Assembly: GCA_013002535.1 (NCBI GenBank)
Contig: JABDJK010000087.1
Location: 1 to 39,472 of the forward strand
DNA from: Hyphococcus sp.
Lineage (GTDB): Bacteria > Pseudomonadota > Alphaproteobacteria > Caulobacterales > Parvularculaceae
Direction of reading: 5' to 3'
Length of the DNA stretch: 39,472 nt
Below the pieces are notes generated by a model. That model was not told the origin of the DNA. It ran no database searches and saw nothing but the letters and a program-made list of their open reading frames with translations. Of the stretch, positions 29,981 to 39,472 are shown one piece after another. Within the stretch, counting starts at the first letter, position 1. Each line of letters begins with the position of its first letter. Both the position numbers and the translations under genes were made by a program.

Positions 29981-30604
29981 TTATGATTGGCTGCGCAAAG
30001 CCGTCTCGCCGGCTTCGAGGGTCCATGTCGACAAATCGCCAATGACGGCGTCAAAGGCCTCATTGAAAGCGGTCAGCACATTGTCAGCGGAATCGCTCGC
30101 TGCGGTGCGTGTGACAGAAAATTTTCTGGCATCGAAAATTCTACCCTTGCCATTGGTAAGGCGCACATAAGCAATGACATTGACGTCACGGGCGCCGTTG
30201 GCGGCGTTGAATTCCAGTTTGCGCAAATCGATTTGCAGGGTGGCGTCGGCTAGCGGCAAAGCGTTCGGATCGCCAACTGAAAGAATGCGGCCAGAGTCTT
30301 CAAACGTTTGTACGACCGCCGTCTGAAACAATCGCGGCGCACGATCCGCCCATTCGGCGCCGGCGTAATATTCAACCTTACCCGGCCCTGTTGCTACGGC
30401 AATTCGAATAGAGTCGTATACGCGCGTAGAACGCGGATCGTCGACAATTAGCGACCACTCTACTGGCGCGCCTGATGACGACAATTCAACGGCTTCGATA
30501 TGATATCGCGGCTTCGGCGGCGCCGTTTCCGGTAGGAGCGATACACAGCCCACGCAGAAAAATGCGAGCCCGAAAATAATAGATTGCAACGCGAGTTTTA
30601 TCAT
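29981..30604 (-). CDS. ABC-type transport auxiliary lipoprotein (PqiC-like)
   Basis: A 207-residue outer-membrane-type lipoprotein of the DUF330/ABC_trans_aux family. The lipobox is in LAFFCVGC with Cys20. The body has the family pattern of an early P(K)PRYHIEAVEL, RIAVATGPGKVEYYAGAEWADRAP and a late LRKLEFNA...VIAYVRLTN. Such proteins pair with MCE proteins to receive or pass lipid at the outer membrane. Its ATG overlaps the stop codon of the MCE gene (ATGA), so it is the last gene of the four-gene operon. Confidence 0.92.
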   Translation of the reverse strand: MIKLALQSIIFGLAFFCVGCVSLLPETAPPKPRYHIEAVELSSSGAPVEWSLIVDDPRSTRVYDSIRIAVATGPGKVEYYAGAEWADRAPRLFQTAVVQTFEDSGRILSVGDPNALPLADATLQIDLRKLEFNAANGARDVNVIAYVRLTNGKGRIFDARKFSVTRTAASDSADNVLTAFNEAFDAVIGDLSTWTLEAGETALRSQS

Positions 30605-31503
30605 TCTTCATCCGCCTCATATTCTGGCGCGTTTTCACCCAGGAAATACGCCTGGGGGTCGCGATCAATTTCACGCAGCATATAATCAAGGGTCTTCATG
30701 AGGCGCCGCAATTCTGCGAGCGCTGGCGCCACTTGCCCCAGCCCCCGGTCAGCAAATACATTGATCGACTCTCGATTATCACCGACGACACCGCGTAAAT
30801 CGACCAGCAGCCCTTCAAGTTCAGCAACAGCGTCCGACGCATCGCCATTGACGATACGTTCAAGACCTTCCGAGGCGCGTTCGAGACGTTCTGTAAGTGC
30901 AGCCAGATCTTCGGTCGCCTTGCTGGCGTTTTTCAGGATTGCAGCGATTTCCGCTTCGTTTTCGGCGACAGCGCCGGTCACGATCTCCACATTCGAAATG
31001 ATGTTCTGGAAATTCTGAATATTTTCATCAGACAGCAATTGACTGGCGCGTGCGATAACGTCGCCTGACCCCTCGAAGAGTGCGCCAAAGCTCGACATAT
31101 CGGCCGTGATCACAGGGATGCGTTGGTCACTCGCGTCATTTAAATATTCAGCGCTCGCGCTGCCGCCAACCAGCTGGATGATGGTTAATCCTGTAAAGCC
31201 AACGGGCTCAAGTTCCGCGCGGGTATCAGTTTTCACAGGCGTGTCTTTATCGACACGAATGCGCGCCACGACAATCTGTGGGTTGTCCGGATCGATTTTT
31301 AGCGTTTCGACTTCACCCTTTTGAATGCCGTTAAATCGCACCTGTGCGCCTACGGATAAACCCGAGACCCGTTCGGTAAAGATAATATCGTATTCGTCAA
31401 ATTCGGTTTGCTGACGGCTGAGCGTCAACACCGCAAGAAAGCCCGCCGCAGCGACGATCATCACGAATGCGCCAATCAGGATATAATGGCCGCGTGTTTC
31501 CAT
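30601..31503 (-). CDS. MCE/MlaD family lipid-binding protein
   Basis: A 300-residue periplasmic MCE protein held by one N-terminal helix (about 8-28). The MCE domain (about 38-115) is seen in YDIIFTERVSGLSVGAQVRFNGIQKGEV and GFTGLTIIQLVGG. Behind it lies a long helical region (about 140-260, heptad-like ENIQNFQNIISNVEIVTGAVAENEAEIAAIL) of the kind that forms a needle-like hexameric tunnel in longer MCE proteins. It is much longer than the MlaD-like protein at 12411-12905, so the two probably serve different systems. It follows the ATPase gene by 16 bases. Confidence 0.93.
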   Translation of the reverse strand: METRGHYILIGAFVMIVAAAGFLAVLTLSRQQTEFDEYDIIFTERVSGLSVGAQVRFNGIQKGEVETLKIDPDNPQIVVARIRVDKDTPVKTDTRAELEPVGFTGLTIIQLVGGSASAEYLNDASDQRIPVITADMSSFGALFEGSGDVIARASQLLSDENIQNFQNIISNVEIVTGAVAENEAEIAAILKNASKATEDLAALTERLERASEGLERIVNGDASDAVAELEGLLVDLRGVVGDNRESINVFADRGLGQVAPALAELRRLMKTLDYMLREIDRDPQAYFLGENAPEYEADEE

Positions 31504-31519
31504 CGAACGCTACTACCCC

Positions 31520-32302
31520 TTAACTCGCCTTTGCGACCAACGCCGCACGCCCCCGCGGGCCCGAGAAATATTCGTTGATCCAGGGATGGTCCGCCCGCCG
31601 AACCTCTTCCAATGGACCGCATTCAATCACATGCTTTTCCGCGAGCACGGCAACCCGGTCGCACGCCGCATGCAGCGTATCAAGATCGTGGGTTACCATA
31701 AACACTGTTAACCCTAAGGATTCCTTGAGATTTATGATCAGCTCATCGAATTTCGCGGCGCCAATGGGGTCCAGCCCCGCCGTTGGTTCATCCAGGAATA
31801 CGAGTTCCGGGTCCAGCGCCAGCGCCCGCGCAAGGCCGGCGCGCTTCTTCATGCCGCCGGAAAGCTCCGACGGATATTTCGCGCCCGCATCCGGCGGCAG
31901 CCCCACCATGGAGATTTTCAAGGCGGCCATATCCTGCGCCAGCTCGCCCTCAACGTGGAGATGCTCGCGGATCGGGGCCATGACATTTTGCGCAACGGTT
32001 AACGAAGAGAAAAGAGCGCCGCCCTGAAACAGAACGCCCCAGCGCCGCTCTATGGAAAGCCGCGTTTTCTCATCCGCTTCATAAAACTCGTCGCCAAAGA
32101 CCCGAACCGTTCCGTTCGACGGTCGTTTCAGGCCGATAATGGCGCGCATCAAGACCGACTTGCCGGTGCCTGAACCTCCAACAACACCCATGATCTCGCC
32201 TGAATGAACATCGAGATCGAGATCGTTGTGAACGACAACATCGTCGAACTGCGTACGCAGATCGCGGACTTCGATCACGTTCGGTTTTGCTGATTTGTCC
32301 AT
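31520..32302 (-). CDS. MlaF-like ABC transporter ATP-binding protein
   Basis: This is the 260-residue ATPase of an MCE-type lipid transporter. It has Walker A GGSGTGKS, a Q-loop in VLFQGGALFSSLTV, the signature LSGGMKKRAGLARALA, Walker B LVFLDEPTAGLDP and the H-loop in VTHDL. The GGALFSSL segment after the Q-loop and LSGGM are typical of MlaF. The ATG at 32302 lies 1 base beyond the permease stop codon, with GGAGA inside the permease end as ribosome site. A longer reading frame from 32452 would only duplicate the permease end in another frame. Confidence 0.95.
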   Translation of the reverse strand: MDKSAKPNVIEVRDLRTQFDDVVVHNDLDLDVHSGEIMGVVGGSGTGKSVLMRAIIGLKRPSNGTVRVFGDEFYEADEKTRLSIERRWGVLFQGGALFSSLTVAQNVMAPIREHLHVEGELAQDMAALKISMVGLPPDAGAKYPSELSGGMKKRAGLARALALDPELVFLDEPTAGLDPIGAAKFDELIINLKESLGLTVFMVTHDLDTLHAACDRVAVLAEKHVIECGPLEEVRRADHPWINEYFSGPRGRAALVAKAS

Positions 32303-32303
32303 T

Positions 32304-33440
32304 CTAGAAATCGATCTCCAGATAGAACATCGCAAAGAACGCATCGATGACGATGACCAGGAACAATGATTGAACCACGGAAAGCGTCGTACGCTGACCA
32401 AGAGACTCTGAGCTCCCCTCGACTTCCATGCCCTGAAAGCAGCCGATAACACCGATCACGAAGGCGAAGAATGGCGCCTTGATCAATCCCGCCCAAAAAT
32501 GATTGATGATAATCGTTTCTTGAAAACGCGCCGCAAACAATGCGAGCGATATATCCATGGCTCCGGCGGCAACCAGCGCACCGCCGGTAACGCCCAAAAC
32601 CGCTGCAATAAAAGCGATCGCTGGCAGCATAATAACCAATGCAACAACCCGTGGGAGAACCAGCGCCTCCATCGGATCAATGCCGAGAACGCGCATGGCG
32701 TCGATCTCTTCGCGGATTTTCATGGAGCCTATCTGCGCGGTAAAGGCGCTGCCCGAACGGCCTGCAATCAAAATTGCCGTCAGCAAAACACCGAATTCAC
32801 GCAAGACGGCGATACCGACAAGTTCGACGGTAAAAATATCGGCATTAAACAACCGCAGAATCTTCGCGCCCATGAACGCAACGACTGCGCCAATCAAAAA
32901 CGACATTAGGCCAATAATCGGAATCGCGTTGAGCCCCGCCTCTTCCATGTGATGGACCGTCGAGGTCCAGCGGAAGTGCGACGGCCTCGTAAGAACGCGC
33001 CACGCTGTAAATAATGTTTGACCGATGAAGCTCATCAATTCGAGCATGGCGTTGATCGCGTCCATGGTGCCGACGCCGAGACGGCGAAGCATTTCCATGA
33101 AGGCGTTCGGATGCACTGGCGAGACGTGACACGGCGCCAAATGATTTTCGACTTGCGCCAACAGCGCGCCATGGGCGTCATTAGCGCCGATAATTCGTGA
33201 ATTTTCTGTACGCTGCGTGCAGGCGAAGAACGTTCGCTGGAGAACCATGGCGCCCGCCGTATCGAGGCGTTCCACGCCGGATACGTCGATCACCAGATCG
33301 CGCCCAACCGAATCATCGGCGAAGTCGCGCAGACGATTGTCGATTTGCTTCAAAAAACGCGCGCGCCAGTCCCCTGACGCGACCAGTTTAAGGACGCCGC
33401 CATCCACATCGATATCGAAATGAGCCGCAGATTCAGCCAT
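32304..33440 (-). CDS. MlaE-like permease with N-terminal STAS domain
   Basis: This is the 378-residue permease subunit of the MCE transporter. Residues 1-100 form a STAS domain (VIDVSGVERLDTAGAMVLQRTF) and 120-378 the MlaE membrane domain with about five to six helices. Signatures are the MEEAGLNAIPIIGLMSFLIGAVVAF start, the conserved EFGVLLTAILIAGRSGSAFTAQIGSMKIREEIDAMRVLGIDP cytoplasmic coupling loop, and LPRVVALVIMLP. Fused STAS domains replace the separate MlaB seen in E. coli. The start at 33440 has AGAAGG 8 bases upstream. It is first in the permease-ATPase-MCE-lipoprotein operon. Confidence 0.94.
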   Translation of the reverse strand: MAESAAHFDIDVDGGVLKLVASGDWRARFLKQIDNRLRDFADDSVGRDLVIDVSGVERLDTAGAMVLQRTFFACTQRTENSRIIGANDAHGALLAQVENHLAPCHVSPVHPNAFMEMLRRLGVGTMDAINAMLELMSFIGQTLFTAWRVLTRPSHFRWTSTVHHMEEAGLNAIPIIGLMSFLIGAVVAFMGAKILRLFNADIFTVELVGIAVLREFGVLLTAILIAGRSGSAFTAQIGSMKIREEIDAMRVLGIDPMEALVLPRVVALVIMLPAIAFIAAVLGVTGGALVAAGAMDISLALFAARFQETIIINHFWAGLIKAPFFAFVIGVIGCFQGMEVEGSSESLGQRTTLSVVQSLFLVIVIDAFFAMFYLEIDF

Positions 33441-33603
33441 GGTTAACGCCTTCTTAACAAAGGACGCGCATCGGCGCGACGCTTGCAGTGTCATCATGGC
33501 GTACAGGATGTTAAAATGGTCCTGAAATCACCGAGAATCCTGCCAAATTGGGTGCTCGCGGGCGATTTTTTGAGTGTGGTGTGTCATTTTGGGAGCGGCT
33601 TTC

Positions 33604-35862
33604 GTGGCCAACAAGTTGTTTTCGGGTCAATTTGAGTGGTTGAAGGCGCTGCCGCTTTTGGTGGTGACCGGCGCATTAGTCGTGATCGCCCTTGGCGCGT
33701 TGGCGGGCGCGCAATCTCCGGACGCCCGATCGCGTGAGGCGCTTTTCAGCTTCTTCCAGCGTCTGTCGCCTGCGGACTACGACGTCTCCGAAAATTTTCA
33801 GATCGTGCTGATTGACCGAGAGAGCGTTGAACAGGTCGGTCCGTGGCCGTGGCCTCGTACAGTCCTCGCCGACATTGTCGAGAATGCGGGCGCCGCGGGC
33901 GCCAAAGCCGTCATCCTCGTTGAACCCATGGACGCGCCCGATCCACTATCGCCGGAAACCATCGGTGAGTTCTGGCTCGAAGGCGCCAGCGACGATGATC
34001 TCGCGACCCAGCTTGCGCGCTTACCGAAAACTGATGAGGTCCTCGCTAATGCTTTTACGCGGCTTCGCGGCGCAGTTGGCGTTGCTGCATCTTCGAGCGC
34101 AGCAACGAGTTCGCAAAATCAGTTTCAGCGCGCTGACGCAAGGCGGGCGCAGTGGCTGAATCTTGAAGAAGGCGGCGCAGAATTTCTCGCATTGCCCGGC
34201 GCACGATATTTTTATGGACTGAATTCGAACCTTGGACGCGCCGCGACGCCGGCCGTCGCCGCGCTTGTTCCCGATAGCGACGGCGTTGTTCGACGCACGC
34301 CATTATTGTGGACGCTTGATGAAACGCCAACGCCGTCAATTGCTTTGGAAGCCGCACGCCTTGCCGGCGCTGCCGATGACGCCTCGTCGATTAATGCGCG
34401 CGCTGACGCGTCGTCTGCAAACGCCGCTGGAAGGTTTGTGAGAGAAATTTCTGTCAATGGCGCGAACCTGCCGATCAACAGATCAACGACCATGCGTTTG
34501 CATTTGCCGAAGCGCCTTGACGCACCGAAGACGTCCGCATCGCGCCTGTTGGGCAATCGCGCCAACGAACAGCTTGACGGCGCCGTCGTTTTTATTGGTC
34601 TCGATACTGACCTCGGATCGTCGGTAGCGACGCCGCGCGGGTCCATGGCGCCAGTCGAGCTCCACGCCCTCACCGCGGCGCAAATTTCCAGCGGGCACGC
34701 GCCGGCGCGGCCCGGCTGGCTCGGCTACATCGAAGCGCTGGGCGTCATGATCTTTGGCGCCGCAGCGGTGATGACGGCGCAGCGCATGCAATTTTGGCAG
34801 GCGATTGGTTTTGCCGCCGCAGTGTCCGCCGCCTTGTTGCTCGGCGCCTTCATGACGTTCGCCTTCTCCAACATGCTTGTCAATCCACTGCCGCCAGCGA
34901 CCGCGATGTTCATCGGCGCGCTTTCCGTCGCCGGCGGGCGATCCATCGGCGGCGTCATGCGCGATGATAATTTCCGCGGATCGTTCCATGACACATTGCC
35001 CGAGCCGGCGATGAAAATGCTGCGCGAAGAAAACAGCGCCGATATTCTGCAGGGCGCGCGTCGCGATATTTCAGTGCTCGCCTGCGAGTTGCGTATCCTC
35101 GAAGAAGATTTGCGCACGATGCAAAACCTTCCCGACGACGTCACCAAACTGATGGCAGCGGCGTCGCTCGATTTGCGCCAGACGATCATTGATACGGGCG
35201 GCGTCGCCGATCAGGCCGAGGGCGGGCGGCTGTTCGCCTATTACAACGCGCCTATCGAGGCAGCGGACCATCAACAGGCGGCCTGCGCCGCAGCGCTGCG
35301 CCTCGTTGAGAGCATGGACAAGATAAACGAGGATTTGGAAGCGTCGAGCCGCACGCGGAACCTGCAAATCCATCTAGGCATCGGCATTGCGACGGGCGAA
35401 TGTTTCATCGGCCCCATGGGGCATGGCCGTAACAATCGCTATTCCGCCATTGGCCCGGCAGTTGATCGCGCCGCGTTCCTTCGTCAGCAATCGGAATTTT
35501 ACGGACCGGCTATGATTGTTGACGAGTCTATTCACCGGCAGACGCACCATCACTTTGCCTATCTTGAACTCGACAAACTGAAGACTCGCGAAACCGCGCG
35601 GCCGTTTTCGATCTACGCCCTTATCGGCAATCCGTTTATCAAATCGTCAAAAGGCTTCCGCGAGCTTGACGAACATCACCGCGGACTTCTCACCGCTTAT
35701 CGCGCCGGCGACGCCGCAGCGGCCCGCGAAATGCTCGCCCGCGCCAAACAATCCCCCGGCGCCAAGATCGCGTTATTTGATATCTATGAAGAACGCATTC
35801 GCACCCTCGCTGAACGCGGCGCGCCAGAAAACTGGGACGGCGCACATACGGTCGGGGTTTGA
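33604..35862 (+). CDS. CHASE2 sensor with degenerate class III cyclase domain
   Basis: A 752-residue membrane protein with an N-terminal helix (about 12-37), an extracytoplasmic CHASE2 sensor (about 45-370; VLIDRESVEQVGPWPWPR is the hallmark), three helices (about 375-450) and a cyclase-homology domain (about 490-690). The metal-binding aspartates of active cyclases seem lost: FADI is ACEL and the GDG turn before the FGAP-like segment is GGR. The IGDAVNLAARL motif reads IGPAVDRAAFL, losing the conserved Asn and Arg. It probably senses something and regulates partners without making a cyclic nucleotide. The GTG at 33604 with GGGAG 8 bases upstream is preferred to 33574. Confidence 0.85.
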   Translation: MANKLFSGQFEWLKALPLLVVTGALVVIALGALAGAQSPDARSREALFSFFQRLSPADYDVSENFQIVLIDRESVEQVGPWPWPRTVLADIVENAGAAGAKAVILVEPMDAPDPLSPETIGEFWLEGASDDDLATQLARLPKTDEVLANAFTRLRGAVGVAASSSAATSSQNQFQRADARRAQWLNLEEGGAEFLALPGARYFYGLNSNLGRAATPAVAALVPDSDGVVRRTPLLWTLDETPTPSIALEAARLAGAADDASSINARADASSANAAGRFVREISVNGANLPINRSTTMRLHLPKRLDAPKTSASRLLGNRANEQLDGAVVFIGLDTDLGSSVATPRGSMAPVELHALTAAQISSGHAPARPGWLGYIEALGVMIFGAAAVMTAQRMQFWQAIGFAAAVSAALLLGAFMTFAFSNMLVNPLPPATAMFIGALSVAGGRSIGGVMRDDNFRGSFHDTLPEPAMKMLREENSADILQGARRDISVLACELRILEEDLRTMQNLPDDVTKLMAAASLDLRQTIIDTGGVADQAEGGRLFAYYNAPIEAADHQQAACAAALRLVESMDKINEDLEASSRTRNLQIHLGIGIATGECFIGPMGHGRNNRYSAIGPAVDRAAFLRQQSEFYGPAMIVDESIHRQTHHHFAYLELDKLKTRETARPFSIYALIGNPFIKSSKGFRELDEHHRGLLTAYRAGDAAAAREMLARAKQSPGAKIALFDIYEERIRTLAERGAPENWDGAHTVGV

Positions 35863-36066
35863 GGGGTAGGCTTTCACAAAATTTGAACCATGCTTAGAAT
35901 GCAACCTGCCACGACATTCATTGGCTCTGAATGGACGGATTGAATTTCAGCCCATCAGGCAATTCATGGCCCTTAGCTGCCTGGTGGGCCTCCCACAATT
36001 ATTGGCTCTATAAAAGCCGTTCGAACATTCCTATAAACTTGAAATCGAAAATATTGCGGGAAACTC

Positions 36067-36828
36067 GTGCTTCTTCGTCGCATTACAGAACATGTCAAAG
36101 CGCAAAATTGGACTGCCGTCGCGCTCGATTTTGTTATCGTCGTTGTTGGCGTCTTTATTGGTATTCAGGTTTCGAATTGGAACGACTCACGGGCTGAGAG
36201 TGCTCTGGCAGATAGTTACCTCACGCGTCTTCAGGAAGATATTTCTACGGATGTGTCAGCAATAAATAAACGTGTAACTTTCTGGCAGGAAGTGATTGAT
36301 CATGGAGCTAATGCGATAAAGTTCATTGAAAGTGGCGATAAAGGTCAAAAATCTGACTGGGACGTAATCATTGACTTTTACCAAGCAAGCCAGATTTGGA
36401 AGTACGAACCCTCCGACCCAACCTATGGCGAGTTAAAAAGCGCGGGTCAGTTGGGGCTCATTAAAGATGGAGCACTGCGGGCTGACCTTGCGGGATATTA
36501 CGAGAATCTTGATAGGCGCGCAGCTGATTTATATTCTTTGAACCCAGAATATCGCCGTCTAATCCGCGCCAAAACGCCTTATACTATTCAAACCCACATA
36601 TGGGAAAACTGCCATGCCGGAGATGGCGTCGATCAGGAGCTTCTCGATTGCCCAGTTCCTGACGCAGAACTCGATTTCGAGAGCCTTCTCGAAGGATTTG
36701 CTGAAGATCCGCGAGTTATTGAGTCACTTCGATTTTGGATTGTAAATCTTTCTATTGCTACGGATCAGGGAATTATAGAGATCGAACGTTTGAAAACGCT
36801 TGCTGAGAAAGTACAGCAAAAAAAGTGA
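36067..36828 (+). CDS. Array gene 1: LRRIT-leader single-TM protein with Cys pair
   Basis: A 253-residue protein: cytoplasmic basic leader LLRRITEHVKAQNW, one membrane helix (about 17-36), then WND and a helical, probably periplasmic domain. It shares with the genes at 37152 and 38665 the pattern FYQASQ..YEP...YGELKSAGQLGLI...LR..LAGYYENL and a Cys pair (C-x12-C) near residue 185-198. It resembles DUF6090-type proteins of unknown function. The GTG start aligns with the paralogues, with a GGGAA just upstream. Its codon use is AT-richer than the neighbours, hinting at transfer or relaxed selection. It stands alone, 323 bases before gene 2. Confidence 0.75.
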   Translation: MLLRRITEHVKAQNWTAVALDFVIVVVGVFIGIQVSNWNDSRAESALADSYLTRLQEDISTDVSAINKRVTFWQEVIDHGANAIKFIESGDKGQKSDWDVIIDFYQASQIWKYEPSDPTYGELKSAGQLGLIKDGALRADLAGYYENLDRRAADLYSLNPEYRRLIRAKTPYTIQTHIWENCHAGDGVDQELLDCPVPDAELDFESLLEGFAEDPRVIESLRFWIVNLSIATDQGIIEIERLKTLAEKVQQKK

Positions 36829-37151
36829 TCCGCTGTCGTATTACAGCAGGCGCCAAGGCTCAGAACAGGACAGCCGGATCGGTACATAAAGCCGACATTC
36901 ATTTCTGACAGTATTGTGACCGTTCCTGGCGATGAATAGTCAGATTGAAAAACAGCCTGACAGGCGCGTAGTGGCCCTAAATTGCCGGTCGCAGAGACTC
37001 CGATGAACGTCTTTGATCGCGCAAAACGCGACTTAGTTTTCATCCTGTGAACGACTGCCTATTGGTTAGGAGCAAACCTAATCCCTAAGAACTCTTGCGC
37101 GATTATTGCACGCCGACCATAGTTGCGAAAAAAAGAGGGATAGCGGCCACG
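36829..37151. other. Unexplained spacer inside the paralogue array
   Basis: No gene is convincing. Small hairpins occur at 37017-37031 (TCGCG-CAAAA-CGCGA, followed by a weak T-run) and around 37066-37081 (TTAGG/CCTAA). The first might end transcription of array gene 1. The minus-strand frame at 36765-37043 overlaps array gene 1 and is not trusted. Whatever promoter drives array genes 2-4 should lie here. Confidence 0.45.
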
Positions 37152-37928
37152 GTGCTATTACGGCGAATCACTAAACACGTGCGTGACCAAAACTGGTTCG
37201 CGGTATTCCTCGACTTCATTATCGTCGTGGTTGGCGTCTTCATCGGTATTCAGGTCGCGAACTGGAATGACGGACGGCAGTTGCGTCAAACCACGCTGAC
37301 ATATTATGAGCGACTGATTGACGATCTTGAAGCGGAACGCACCACCCAACGGGAACTCACTGCCTATTACCGTCAGGTCAAACAGCATGGGCTGGCGACT
37401 TTAGGGCGCCTTCAGTCAGGTAAAGCTGCGCCGACAGAGCGATATTTCATCGATGCCTATCAGGCGTCGCAGGTGCGCACCTATACGCCCCAGAATGCGA
37501 CCTATAACGAACTGCTCAGTGCAGGAATAGCTAGCGCGATACCAGACGCTGATTTGCGCGGCCGGCTTGCGAATTATTATCTAACCCTCAAGAATTCCGA
37601 ACGAGTGCAAGCGGAAACAACGCCGTATCGGTCCAATCTGCGCACCTATATGCCCTATGATCTTCAGGCGCTAATTCGCGAACGCTGTAAGGAAGAGTTT
37701 TACGTGCAGGATGACGGAATGTTCTCCGTCGATCTGAGCGACGACTGCTCGCTGGACGCTGACTCAGAGTTGTTGGAACGGTCGCTTGCGGCGTTGGAAA
37801 CCTATGATGCGATGGAATTAGAGCTTGGTCGTCATCTTAGCGATATAGATTTAAAGCTGACGTCGCTGGCTATTTATGAGCGTGCGACGGTGAAAACGCT
37901 TAAGGCGTTAATCGAGGAATTAGACTGA
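37152..37928 (+). CDS. Array gene 2: LRRIT-leader single-TM protein with Cys pair
   Basis: A 258-residue paralogue: leader LLRRITKHVRDQNW, helix DFIIVVVGVFIGIQVANWND, then a helical domain with the array pattern AYQASQ..TYTP...YNELLSAGIASAI...LRGRLANYYLTL, YRSNLRTYMPYDLQALI and a Cys pair (C-x19-C, about 185-205). The GTG start at 37152 is fixed by alignment with the paralogues; an upstream ATG-like frame from 37095 adds an unlike leader. Its stop codon overlaps the next ATG (TGATG), so it is translationally coupled to gene 3. Function unknown; the membrane topology (basic leader inside) predicts that the domain faces the periplasm. Confidence 0.78.
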   Translation: MLLRRITKHVRDQNWFAVFLDFIIVVVGVFIGIQVANWNDGRQLRQTTLTYYERLIDDLEAERTTQRELTAYYRQVKQHGLATLGRLQSGKAAPTERYFIDAYQASQVRTYTPQNATYNELLSAGIASAIPDADLRGRLANYYLTLKNSERVQAETTPYRSNLRTYMPYDLQALIRERCKEEFYVQDDGMFSVDLSDDCSLDADSELLERSLAALETYDAMELELGRHLSDIDLKLTSLAIYERATVKTLKALIEELD

Positions 37929-38668
37929 TGCTCCTTCGCCGCATTACCGAGCACGTTAAAGCGCAGAACTGGACCGCTATCGCGCTAGATTTTTTCATCG
38001 TTATTGCTGGAATACTGATCGCCTTTCAAATTACCGCCTGGAATGAGGCGCGCGCCAACCGCGCCGCAGCTGACCGATATATCGCCAGCCTTGCGCAGGA
38101 TTTGCGCGCAGACATAGACGACCTCGAAGCCGTTCGCCAGAACAAAGCGTTCAACGCGGCGGTAATGGAAATCACACTTGTCGGTAGCGGCGCCGCCGAT
38201 CCGGCAAAGCTTTTGCCCGGACCGCCGGTTGACCGGTCTACCATCCCCGCATTTGACTCGCCAGCATGGGCCGCCTTCGCTGCTAAGGTGTTCAATACGC
38301 TTACGTTCGATCCCAGCACCCAGACTTTCGATATGCTGGTGGCGACCGGCGACGTTGCACTGATCGAAAATTATGAATTGGTGCAGACGCTGATGGCGTA
38401 TCGGCAGGCTGTTGTTGTGATGGAGGATTTTGAGGCCAATTCCGGTGCGTTGCAGATTTCAATGGTGCCGAATTTTATCGCCGCTGGAATCGCCGTTGGC
38501 TATCCTATTGAAACAGAAAAATATCGCGCGGCGATGGAAGACAATGAGGCTTTGAAGGCGACGTACATCTCTTTACGCACGCTCACACTTGCGAGCTATG
38601 CCCGCGCCAAGCGAACGCAGGCGTTGGCGAAGGAAACATTAGCGGCGCTAGAGGCGGCGCAACAATGA
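37928..38668 (+). CDS. Array gene 3: divergent LRRIT-leader single-TM protein
   Basis: A 246-residue paralogue with the same leader (LLRRITEHVKAQNW) but a different helix (FFIVIAGILIAFQITAWNEAR) and a clearly different outer domain. It has no YQAS motif and no cysteine at all. Instead it has PAFDSPAWAAFAAKVFNTLTF and TFDMLVATGDVALIENYELVQTLMAY, which resembles the xYxELxSAGxxxLIxDxxLR motif of the siblings. It is therefore the same family with a replaced or strongly diverged body. It overlaps gene 2 by one base and gene 4 by four (ATGA), so genes 2-4 form a tight operon. Confidence 0.78.
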   Translation: MLLRRITEHVKAQNWTAIALDFFIVIAGILIAFQITAWNEARANRAAADRYIASLAQDLRADIDDLEAVRQNKAFNAAVMEITLVGSGAADPAKLLPGPPVDRSTIPAFDSPAWAAFAAKVFNTLTFDPSTQTFDMLVATGDVALIENYELVQTLMAYRQAVVVMEDFEANSGALQISMVPNFIAAGIAVGYPIETEKYRAAMEDNEALKATYISLRTLTLASYARAKRTQALAKETLAALEAAQQ

Positions 38669-39426
38669 TCCTGCGCCGCATCACAGAACACGTCAAAGCG
38701 CAGAACTGGACCGCGGTTGGGCTCGACTTTGTTATCGTCGTTGTTGGTGTGTTCCTTGGTATTCAGGTTGCCAACTGGAATGCAACCCAGGCGAATAAAA
38801 GGACAGCTCAAAAAGCTGTTGAGAGTGTTCAGGCAGAACTGTCGAGCAATCAAGAGATGCTACGAATCTGGATTGACGCTTATGGGACGTATAGAGCACA
38901 CGCATTGGCCACACTTGATGGGCTGGAGCGCCCGGTGGAGGAGTGGGGCGAACAGTTTTTGGTCGATGCATATCAGGCCAGTGGTTACGTGCCCATCACA
39001 CTCCCTCGCGACGCCTATGATGATTTCCTGGCGCTGGGGCCGTCGAAGGTGCTCATCGATGAGGATATCCGGCAAAGTCTGGCAAGATATTACTTTTTTC
39101 TGGAAAGCCAGGAAATAAATCTGATACAAGTGCCTGCTTATCGCAGCCACCTGCGGAGCGTCATGCCTCATGATGTTGAAAACCGTATACGCACCAAATG
39201 CCCGGTACATGTAAACATCCTTGAGAATTCTGTCTCGCGGACGGATACCTGTCAGCCAGATTTAACAGCGGACCAGATAGAGCGAGCCGTGGCGGAATTG
39301 TCTGCCGCGGATCTCAAACCTGATTTCAATTTGGCTCTCTCTGACATGTATTTGAAAATCGGCATTTCCCGCTTATTCCTGAATACGACACAGGAGCTGG
39401 ATGATTTTATTGAAGACGCCACCTAA
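38665..39426 (+). CDS. Array gene 4: LRRIT-leader single-TM protein with Cys pair
   Basis: A 253-residue paralogue: leader ILRRITEHVKAQNW, helix DFVIVVVGVFLGIQVANWN, then AYQASGYVPITLPRDAYDDFLALGPSKVLIDEDIRQSLARYYFFL, YRSHLRSVMPHDVENRI and a Cys pair (C-x16-C, about 187-204). It starts within the stop codon of gene 3. Its 5' end is nearly identical in DNA to array gene 1 (a 20-base perfect match within the helix codons). Only 46 bases follow before the window ends, so the array may go on. Function unknown. Confidence 0.78.
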   Translation: MILRRITEHVKAQNWTAVGLDFVIVVVGVFLGIQVANWNATQANKRTAQKAVESVQAELSSNQEMLRIWIDAYGTYRAHALATLDGLERPVEEWGEQFLVDAYQASGYVPITLPRDAYDDFLALGPSKVLIDEDIRQSLARYYFFLESQEINLIQVPAYRSHLRSVMPHDVENRIRTKCPVHVNILENSVSRTDTCQPDLTADQIERAVAELSAADLKPDFNLALSDMYLKIGISRLFLNTTQELDDFIEDAT

Positions 39427-39472
39427 ACCTGAGCAAGCTATTTCGATACGCATCTTCAGCTGTGTCTCCCCT

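Follow-up and report, generated by a model that had tools for sequence, protein, structure and literature searches.

Tandem arrays of membrane proteins with genome-specific leaders and variable bodies in Hyphococcus sp. and its relatives: a possible recombining repertoire

Introduction

Both antigenic variation and immunity clusters provide known cases of tandem paralogues that combine a constant with a variable part. In Firmicutes, the immunity genes esaG, tipC and tsaI of type VII secretion systems form strings of non-identical paralogues with variable copy number, and esaG and tipC recombine at blocks of homology, according to the available part of PMC9484751, on which all statements about these genes rest. 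Here we describe an array of comparable layout at positions 36067-39426, the right end of a 39,472-nucleotide stretch of DNA from the marine bacterium Hyphococcus sp. (contig JABDJK010000087.1; hereafter the window). Four consecutive plus-strand open reading frames (ORFs) begin there with a common leader and transmembrane (TM) segment of about 37 residues and then diverge into different bodies. The ORFs and an entropy profile of 76 copies from the genus agree with the original prediction of this organization.

The closest described system in layout is tsaI, whose conservation is confined to roughly the first 75 residues; unlike in the arrays described here, little recombination was found there (PMC9484751). 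The esaG, tipC and tsaI clusters adjoin a known toxin or secretion locus, whereas none was recognized at the present arrays, which differ further in their start/stop overlaps and in having a genome-specific TM leader as the constant block (PMC9484751). The rAID orphan immunity arrays of Bacteroidales likewise hold divergent protective genes away from the toxin locus, but they are associated with recombinases and their described members carry SUKH domains, according to the available part of PMC12247911; neither was found in the present arrays. The lpl cluster of Staphylococcus aureus shares tandem envelope paralogues, variable copy number and a conserved stretch for recombination. Its fold and anchoring are different, its conserved stretch is central and not a 5' leader, and cargo between leader remnants, as in the present arrays, does not appear in the available parts of its descriptions (PMC4470592, PMC9484751). 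A search for arrays of tandem paralogues that keep a constant N-terminus gave no description of the present arrays, and DUF6090 (PF19578), the protein family that they most resemble, was named in no paper of the literature searched; most subscription journals lie outside the coverage of these searches.

Comparison with related genomes leads us to propose, at about even confidence, that the arrays are recombining sets of membrane proteins, with the N-terminus inside and the body outside, built on repeated leader DNA. What would distinguish them from the systems above is a constant part that is a genome-specific membrane anchor, joined to bodies that are common to genera and families of the order.

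Leader and body histories

Leaders and bodies were compared among 307 proteins that passed a length (200) and start-codon filter; the relatives include metagenome-assembled genomes (MAGs), within which strains may be mixed. Among pairs with unrelated bodies, leader identity was 0.774 within genomes (1868 pairs) and 0.607 between them (44724 pairs), a difference of 0.166 against a maximum of 0.026 in 500 label permutations. The consensus leader is accordingly specific to the genome: LLRRITEHVKAQNWFAVALDFVIVVVGVFIG in the window's own genome (G000), ILQRLATSIRKQDWFTVLIETLIVVLGVFLG in G211 and ILRRIKAHVENENWFAVGIDFCIVVIGVFIG in G259. Every body of the window is closest to a body from another genome (67-79% identity). 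The nearest relative of the gene 1 body is in G011 (72.6%), those of gene 2 are in G008 (67.1%) and G004 (66.4%), and those of genes 3 and 4 are in the MAG OFTM115 (78.6% and 70.9%), on different contigs. As judged by these alignments, leaders follow the genome and bodies do not.

Bodies that are 72-82% identical occur in different GTDB families of the order. In one such pair (L011:6921 of G000 and L110:3755 of G229) the bodies are 82% identical and the leaders match at 17 of 30 residues; the non-synonymous divergence (dN) is 0.30 for the leader and 0.10 for the body. GatB proteins of other members of G229's family, with G229's own left out, are 68-70% identical to that of G006, so transfer of bodies between families is likely. 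A chimera is present in the MAG G005, where two bodies are 95% identical while their leaders agree at only 14 of 30 residues. One of the two shares 98% DNA identity with the leader of an adjacent gene in its array, a gene whose body has no detectable similarity. The point of change-over is at about nucleotides 100-120 of the coding sequence. Because related genomes pair similar bodies with different anchors, the arrays look like a recombining repertoire.

At another locus (L112, contig C1 of G178), two leader types take turns along a row of four copies, and the bodies of copies 1 and 3 are 95% identical, a pattern resembling the duplication of a two-gene unit.

Array ends and the gatB-cysK interval

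Adjacent genes of the related loci overlap by exactly 4 nt (82 pairs) or 1 nt (48 pairs) in 130 of 136 cases. The overlaps predicted for genes 2 to 4 of the window follow the same habit, with 1 nt between genes 2 and 3 and 4 nt between genes 3 and 4. At the overlap position behind the last gene, a decayed extra leader (hereafter stub) was found at 39 of 79 array ends, duplicate loci having been dropped, compared with 6 of 515 control gene ends, the threshold being the 99th percentile of the controls; three of these six are partner genes sitting inside arrays. At least eight genes outside the family also have leader stubs behind them. The initial 47 extra leader-like sites included unmasked loci (in L097 and L100, five that were duplicates or true genes) and leaders truncated by the end of a contig; without these, eight sites behind genes outside the family were left.

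The interval between gatB and cysK differs widely in content among the relatives. It is empty in G003, with only 120 nt, and is a 0.7-kb gap without a copy in G002. G009 has four copies, G006 two copies and a stub, and G010 a gene of a partner family (family B), one copy and a stub. A leader-fused NHL-repeat protein, a SnoaL-like gene (Pfam) and a stub are found in G007, an ORF resembling an M20 peptidase (by-eye comparison) in G004, and an ORF of 164-165 residues in both G008 and G011. For G005, the gatB side and the cysK side come from different contigs: the former has family B, an M20 peptidase (Pfam), one copy, a stub and a SnoaL-like ORF, the latter six copies. The two sides are also separated in the window's own genome (contigs C17 and C33), with no family copy in the stretches read. 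In-frame fusions of the leader to unrelated proteins, known as predicted ORFs, include the NHL-repeat protein of G007 and a 299-residue protein of G008 without a Pfam match. The fused protein of G007 had been taken for an M20 peptidase, an assignment rejected by its Pfam match; the M20 peptidase lies in G005.

Constant neighbours, which the original prediction had proposed to look for, were found in part. Family B (GANIGVVLGLIILIVEVRQN), which has no Pfam match, was searched for in 20 relatives. Each of its six strong matches has a family gene within about 1.6 kb, and its two weak matches do not; family B occurs in only a subset of genomes and was not found in G000 at the strong-match cut-off. 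Genes of a further family (family C, e.g. MTLENIYYIGQTIAVIAILASLGAIWVQMRQ) lie in or beside arrays at 11 loci, and a DUF4956 protein does so at one.

Recombination and paralogue expansion

Several results weigh against recombination at the leader as a general and continuing process. In a matched test, the leaders of array mates were closer than that of the body ortholog in only 71 of 123 genes (0.780 versus 0.740; Wilcoxon p 0.018). Adjacent leaders were no more alike than in shuffled order, the observed value being reached by 246 of 2000 shuffles. Four-fold degenerate sites of the leaders are only 0.37-0.82 identical within genomes; in each of 26 genomes this is more than codon usage alone would give, and in G000 the identity shows little excess, with 0.50 within the genome and 0.43-0.56 with most relatives. 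Because these sites have diverged within genomes, recent gene conversion is not general, and its occurrence between neighbouring leaders as a rule is rejected by the same sites and the shuffled-order test. Stubs above the control percentile are missing at 40 of 79 array ends; they occur at 36 of 62 ends of alphaproteobacterial-type loci and at only 3 of 17 others. As for the bodies, the ratio of non-synonymous to synonymous divergence (dN/dS) was 0.08-0.33 in 21 of the 22 closest body pairs (the remaining pair was not computable), which indicates purifying selection. Together with the single modelled fold described below, this is half of what uniform selection on one fold and one sequence would predict, and body sequences are far from uniform.

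These points are also what an ordinary expansion of envelope paralogues would lead one to expect. Old duplicates would have diverged, the leader would be fixed by contact within the membrane, stubs would be decayed last genes and recombination would be incidental. Purifying selection on bodies, divergence of synonymous leader sites under a conserved peptide, the negative shuffled-order test and the occurrence of decaying broken copies (C52 of G000) all fit. Expansion does not readily account for a leader consensus that is genome-specific while bodies are common to several genomes, for the G005 chimera with its near-identical neighbour leader, for the body identities across GTDB families, or for unrelated cargo between leader remnants, and we consider it somewhat unlikely.

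Recombination between paralogues at conserved blocks, a trait of the described immunity arrays, is seen here too, as judged by leader and body identities, the chimera and the divergence estimates and not by a dedicated program such as RDP, and the order test gives no general support to exchange between direct neighbours. If the arrays are recombining sets, the repeated leader DNA would supply the homology through which bodies, and at times adjacent genes, enter or leave an array and are joined anew. Incoming bodies would carry or acquire the resident leader. Purifying selection must contribute to leader constancy, and recombination together with this selection would keep leader variation within a genome small, the probable reason being a TM partner common to all copies or pairing of the copies with each other.

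Distribution and copy number

In the window's own genome (116 contigs, 3.44 Mb), gene 1 has 33 matches at E<=1. There are 24 full-length genes, on contigs C57, C58, C67, C75, C78, C89 and C91, one broken copy and three copies cut by the ends of C22, C42 and C102. In a profile search of the order, 50 of 120 genomes and 16 of 28 genera had the family, with 0 to 23 scored copies per genome; genomes of the same genus have 23, 14, 3, 2, 1 and 0. In a class-wide search only 4 of 144 genomes, the own one included, had the family, which is therefore sporadic outside the order at that cut-off. A scan of named genomes added loci in Wenzhouxiangella, Sinimarinibacterium and single MAGs labelled Opitutales, Woeseiaceae and Deltaproteobacteria.

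The loci examined form 86 separate runs of 1-12 genes, 44 with at least two genes and 42 singletons, and singletons coexist with large arrays. Since arrays recur and both copy number and content vary, the two points on which the original prediction had proposed to question related genomes, these are not scattered singletons without variation. Tandem, non-identical paralogues in variable copy number are a feature shared with interbacterial immunity arrays of the esaG, tipC and rAID kind.

Topology and fold

Mean column entropy over the 76 copies is 0.5-0.65 bit at residues 1-30, about 1.0 bit at residues 31-40 and 2.4-3.6 bits in the body. Among 122 aligned members, mean net charge is +2.0 over the 14 residues before the TM segment and -2.0 over the 30 after it, and the N side is the more positive in 121. 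Two body cysteines, numbered 180 and 193 in aligned gene 1, occur together in 51 members and singly in none, which suggests a disulfide and an oxidizing, periplasmic location. The predicted topology is N-terminus in with the body facing the periplasm, and the outward-facing bodies of the original prediction are borne out by charge and cysteines alike.

AlphaFold2 models had a mean predicted local distance difference test score (pLDDT) of 94.2 and a predicted template modelling score (pTM) of 0.84 for gene 1, and 88.4 and 0.79 for gene 3. The order of helices, compared without superposition, is similar in the two models, so gene 3 appears to be a divergent version of the body and not a replacement; as far as modelled, in these two members, the bodies share one fold. 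The core motif of gene 3 is likewise recognizable in divergent form (TFDMLVATGDVALIENYELVQTLMAYR, versus TYGELKSAGQLGLIKDGALRADLAGYY in gene 1). The earlier claim that gene 3 had replaced most of its core was rejected on both grounds.

The family resembles DUF6090 (PF19578) in its N-terminal TM segment and helical body. The window proteins score 22.0, 21.8, 20.4 and 16.3 bits (genes 1 to 4; E-values 1.6e-4 to 8.7e-3), below the gathering cut-off of 23.5, and are therefore filed as DUF6090-like and not as members. A match at E<=0.01 was obtained for 73 of the 122 aligned members, the best at 4.7e-8. Searched with the gene 1 model, PDB and BFVD yielded no structure of matching fold at E<=0.001; a PDB sequence search gave nothing under E 0.11, and NCBIfam and PHROGs gave the four proteins only matches at E 0.02 or weaker. 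A search of Rfam had no match.

In the model of gene 1, a continuous 75-residue helix crosses the membrane and enters the body, and a long C-terminal helix leads back. This geometry would suit a repertoire of periplasmic sensors, whose bodies bind ligands and whose constant TM and N-terminal segment signals to one common partner in the inner membrane or cytoplasm. NarQ sensor fragments are among the sub-threshold PDB fold matches (E 0.44 and 0.54), and a genome-specific leader is compatible with a co-evolving partner. Fold matches at the threshold are absent, however, as is a second TM segment, the cytoplasmic leader is short, and neighbour clustering found no constant signalling gene beside the arrays; we regard sensing as improbable.

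Possible function

We tentatively favour, at less than even confidence, a repertoire of immunity or exclusion proteins, because the layout and dynamics of the arrays resemble those of tandem immunity clusters in the available parts of PMC9484751 and PMC12247911. Each body would be an anchored periplasmic binder, and the array would act against agents whose site of action is the periplasm or the inner membrane. Several results count against this assignment, among them the selection on close bodies, which is purifying and not diversifying. PADLOC matched none of the four window proteins and none of five array-neighbour proteins. No phage, plasmid or viral-contig relative of the family was found, and there was no toxin family among the array neighbours scanned. 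The type VI secretion system (T6SS) sheath gene PF05591 was absent from all 20 relatives, in a search that among secretion systems was limited to T6SS. The cognate toxin or secretion system that accompanies immunity arrays was thus not found, as judged on PF05591 and the neighbours scanned.

TIR-TPR proteins were seen within a few kb of family genes at L015, L048, L053 and L076. The one at L015:3995-6028 has a TIR_2 match, and its end coincides exactly with a leader stub; next to one family copy, a TIR-TPR protein matches the TIR models of PADLOC.

A bolder version, which we think rather doubtful, is that the leader is a translated recombination repeat, with n bodies and n+1 leaders, at whose DNA bodies, partner membrane genes and cargo are swapped, even between families of the order, and that the payload is a defence or immunity repertoire. 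If true, the arrays would keep their books in the manner of an integron or CRISPR locus, with a repeat that is DNA joint and membrane anchor at once. Leader remnants and cargo would form a record of array turnover, and the arrays may offer a natural system for the study of recombination at a coding repeat. A group of proteins without an assigned function would gain a testable hypothesis, that of a swappable periplasmic repertoire.

Features of the window array

The features are listed in Table 1. All four window proteins begin with the consensus [MV][LI]LRRIT[EK]HV(K/R)xQNW. The start of gene 2 was set at the internal GTG that opens the leader; its longest ORF begins upstream, at TTG 37095. 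Over the whole protein, gene 1 is 35% identical to gene 2, 22% to gene 3 and 26% to gene 4. Genes 1 and 2 are separated by a gap of 323 nt that opens with a stub, whose position weight matrix score is 8.4 (control 99th percentile -9.1) and whose local alignment was reached by 0 of 100 shuffles.

Table 1. Coordinates of the array and of features upstream of it in the window
Feature	Position	Strand	Remarks
Mla-type lipid transport operon	29981-33497	opposite to array	MlaE, ATPase, MlaD, auxiliary lipoprotein; upstream of array
CHASE2 protein	33574-35862		weak cyclase match; upstream of array
Upstream element TTCGAACATTCCTATA	36020..36035	+	some 46 nt upstream of gene 1; putative promoter for heads of arrays and for singletons
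Gene 1	36067..36828	+	GTG start; leader/TM about 36067-36177, then body; core motif and cysteine pair
Decayed leader stub GTGATCCGCTGTCGTATTACAGCAGGCGCC...	36825..36875 (end approximate)	+	4-nt overlap position behind gene 1; non-gene
Gene 2	37152..37928	+	GTG start
Gene 3	37928..38668	+	most divergent body
Gene 4	38665..39426	+	contig end 46 nt downstream

The upstream element has the pattern TCRAAC-N2-5-YTATA. In the 90 nt preceding the gene, this pattern occurs at 11 of 102 array heads or singletons, at 0 of 199 inner array genes and at 0 of 530 other genes. Genome-wide it has five matches in G000, against one for the reversed pattern. A promoter and terminator scan gave 4 promoter-like sites (3.3 expected) and 8 terminator-like sites (3.8 expected). 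A common 3' tail, GAAAAGCAACC[AG]T[AG]A...ACATTCG..., lies behind stubs at L009, L031/L081, L041, L049, L082 and L084; in the own genome it has one strong match, behind the C89 array. The element at some heads and singletons, the tail and the cargo between leader remnants could point to mainly selfish units, self-spreading cassettes dispersed through leader repeats and element with little benefit to the host, but this is very unlikely given that no recombinase or transposase recurs in the 30 largest neighbour clusters viewed, that the element occurs at few places in G000 and that bodies are under purifying selection.

The array probably continues beyond the window, to judge by the extension to the right that the original prediction had proposed. 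The last 127 nt (39346-39472) are identical to the reverse-complemented end of contig C67 (L014), on which a fifth copy begins 234 nt past the window, with its own upstream element-like region and a leader stub behind it. Contigs C22 and C42 (L017 and L018) terminate in the same 127 nt, comprising upstream region and leader, so breaks of the G000 assembly are located in the leader repeat. The end of contig C102 (L016) has 122 nt identical to window positions 38693-38814, which cover the leader of gene 4 and the opening codons of its body. On C102 they are preceded by another 5' flank, one that has an upstream element, which suggests a second arrangement of the gene 4 body in the genome or population.

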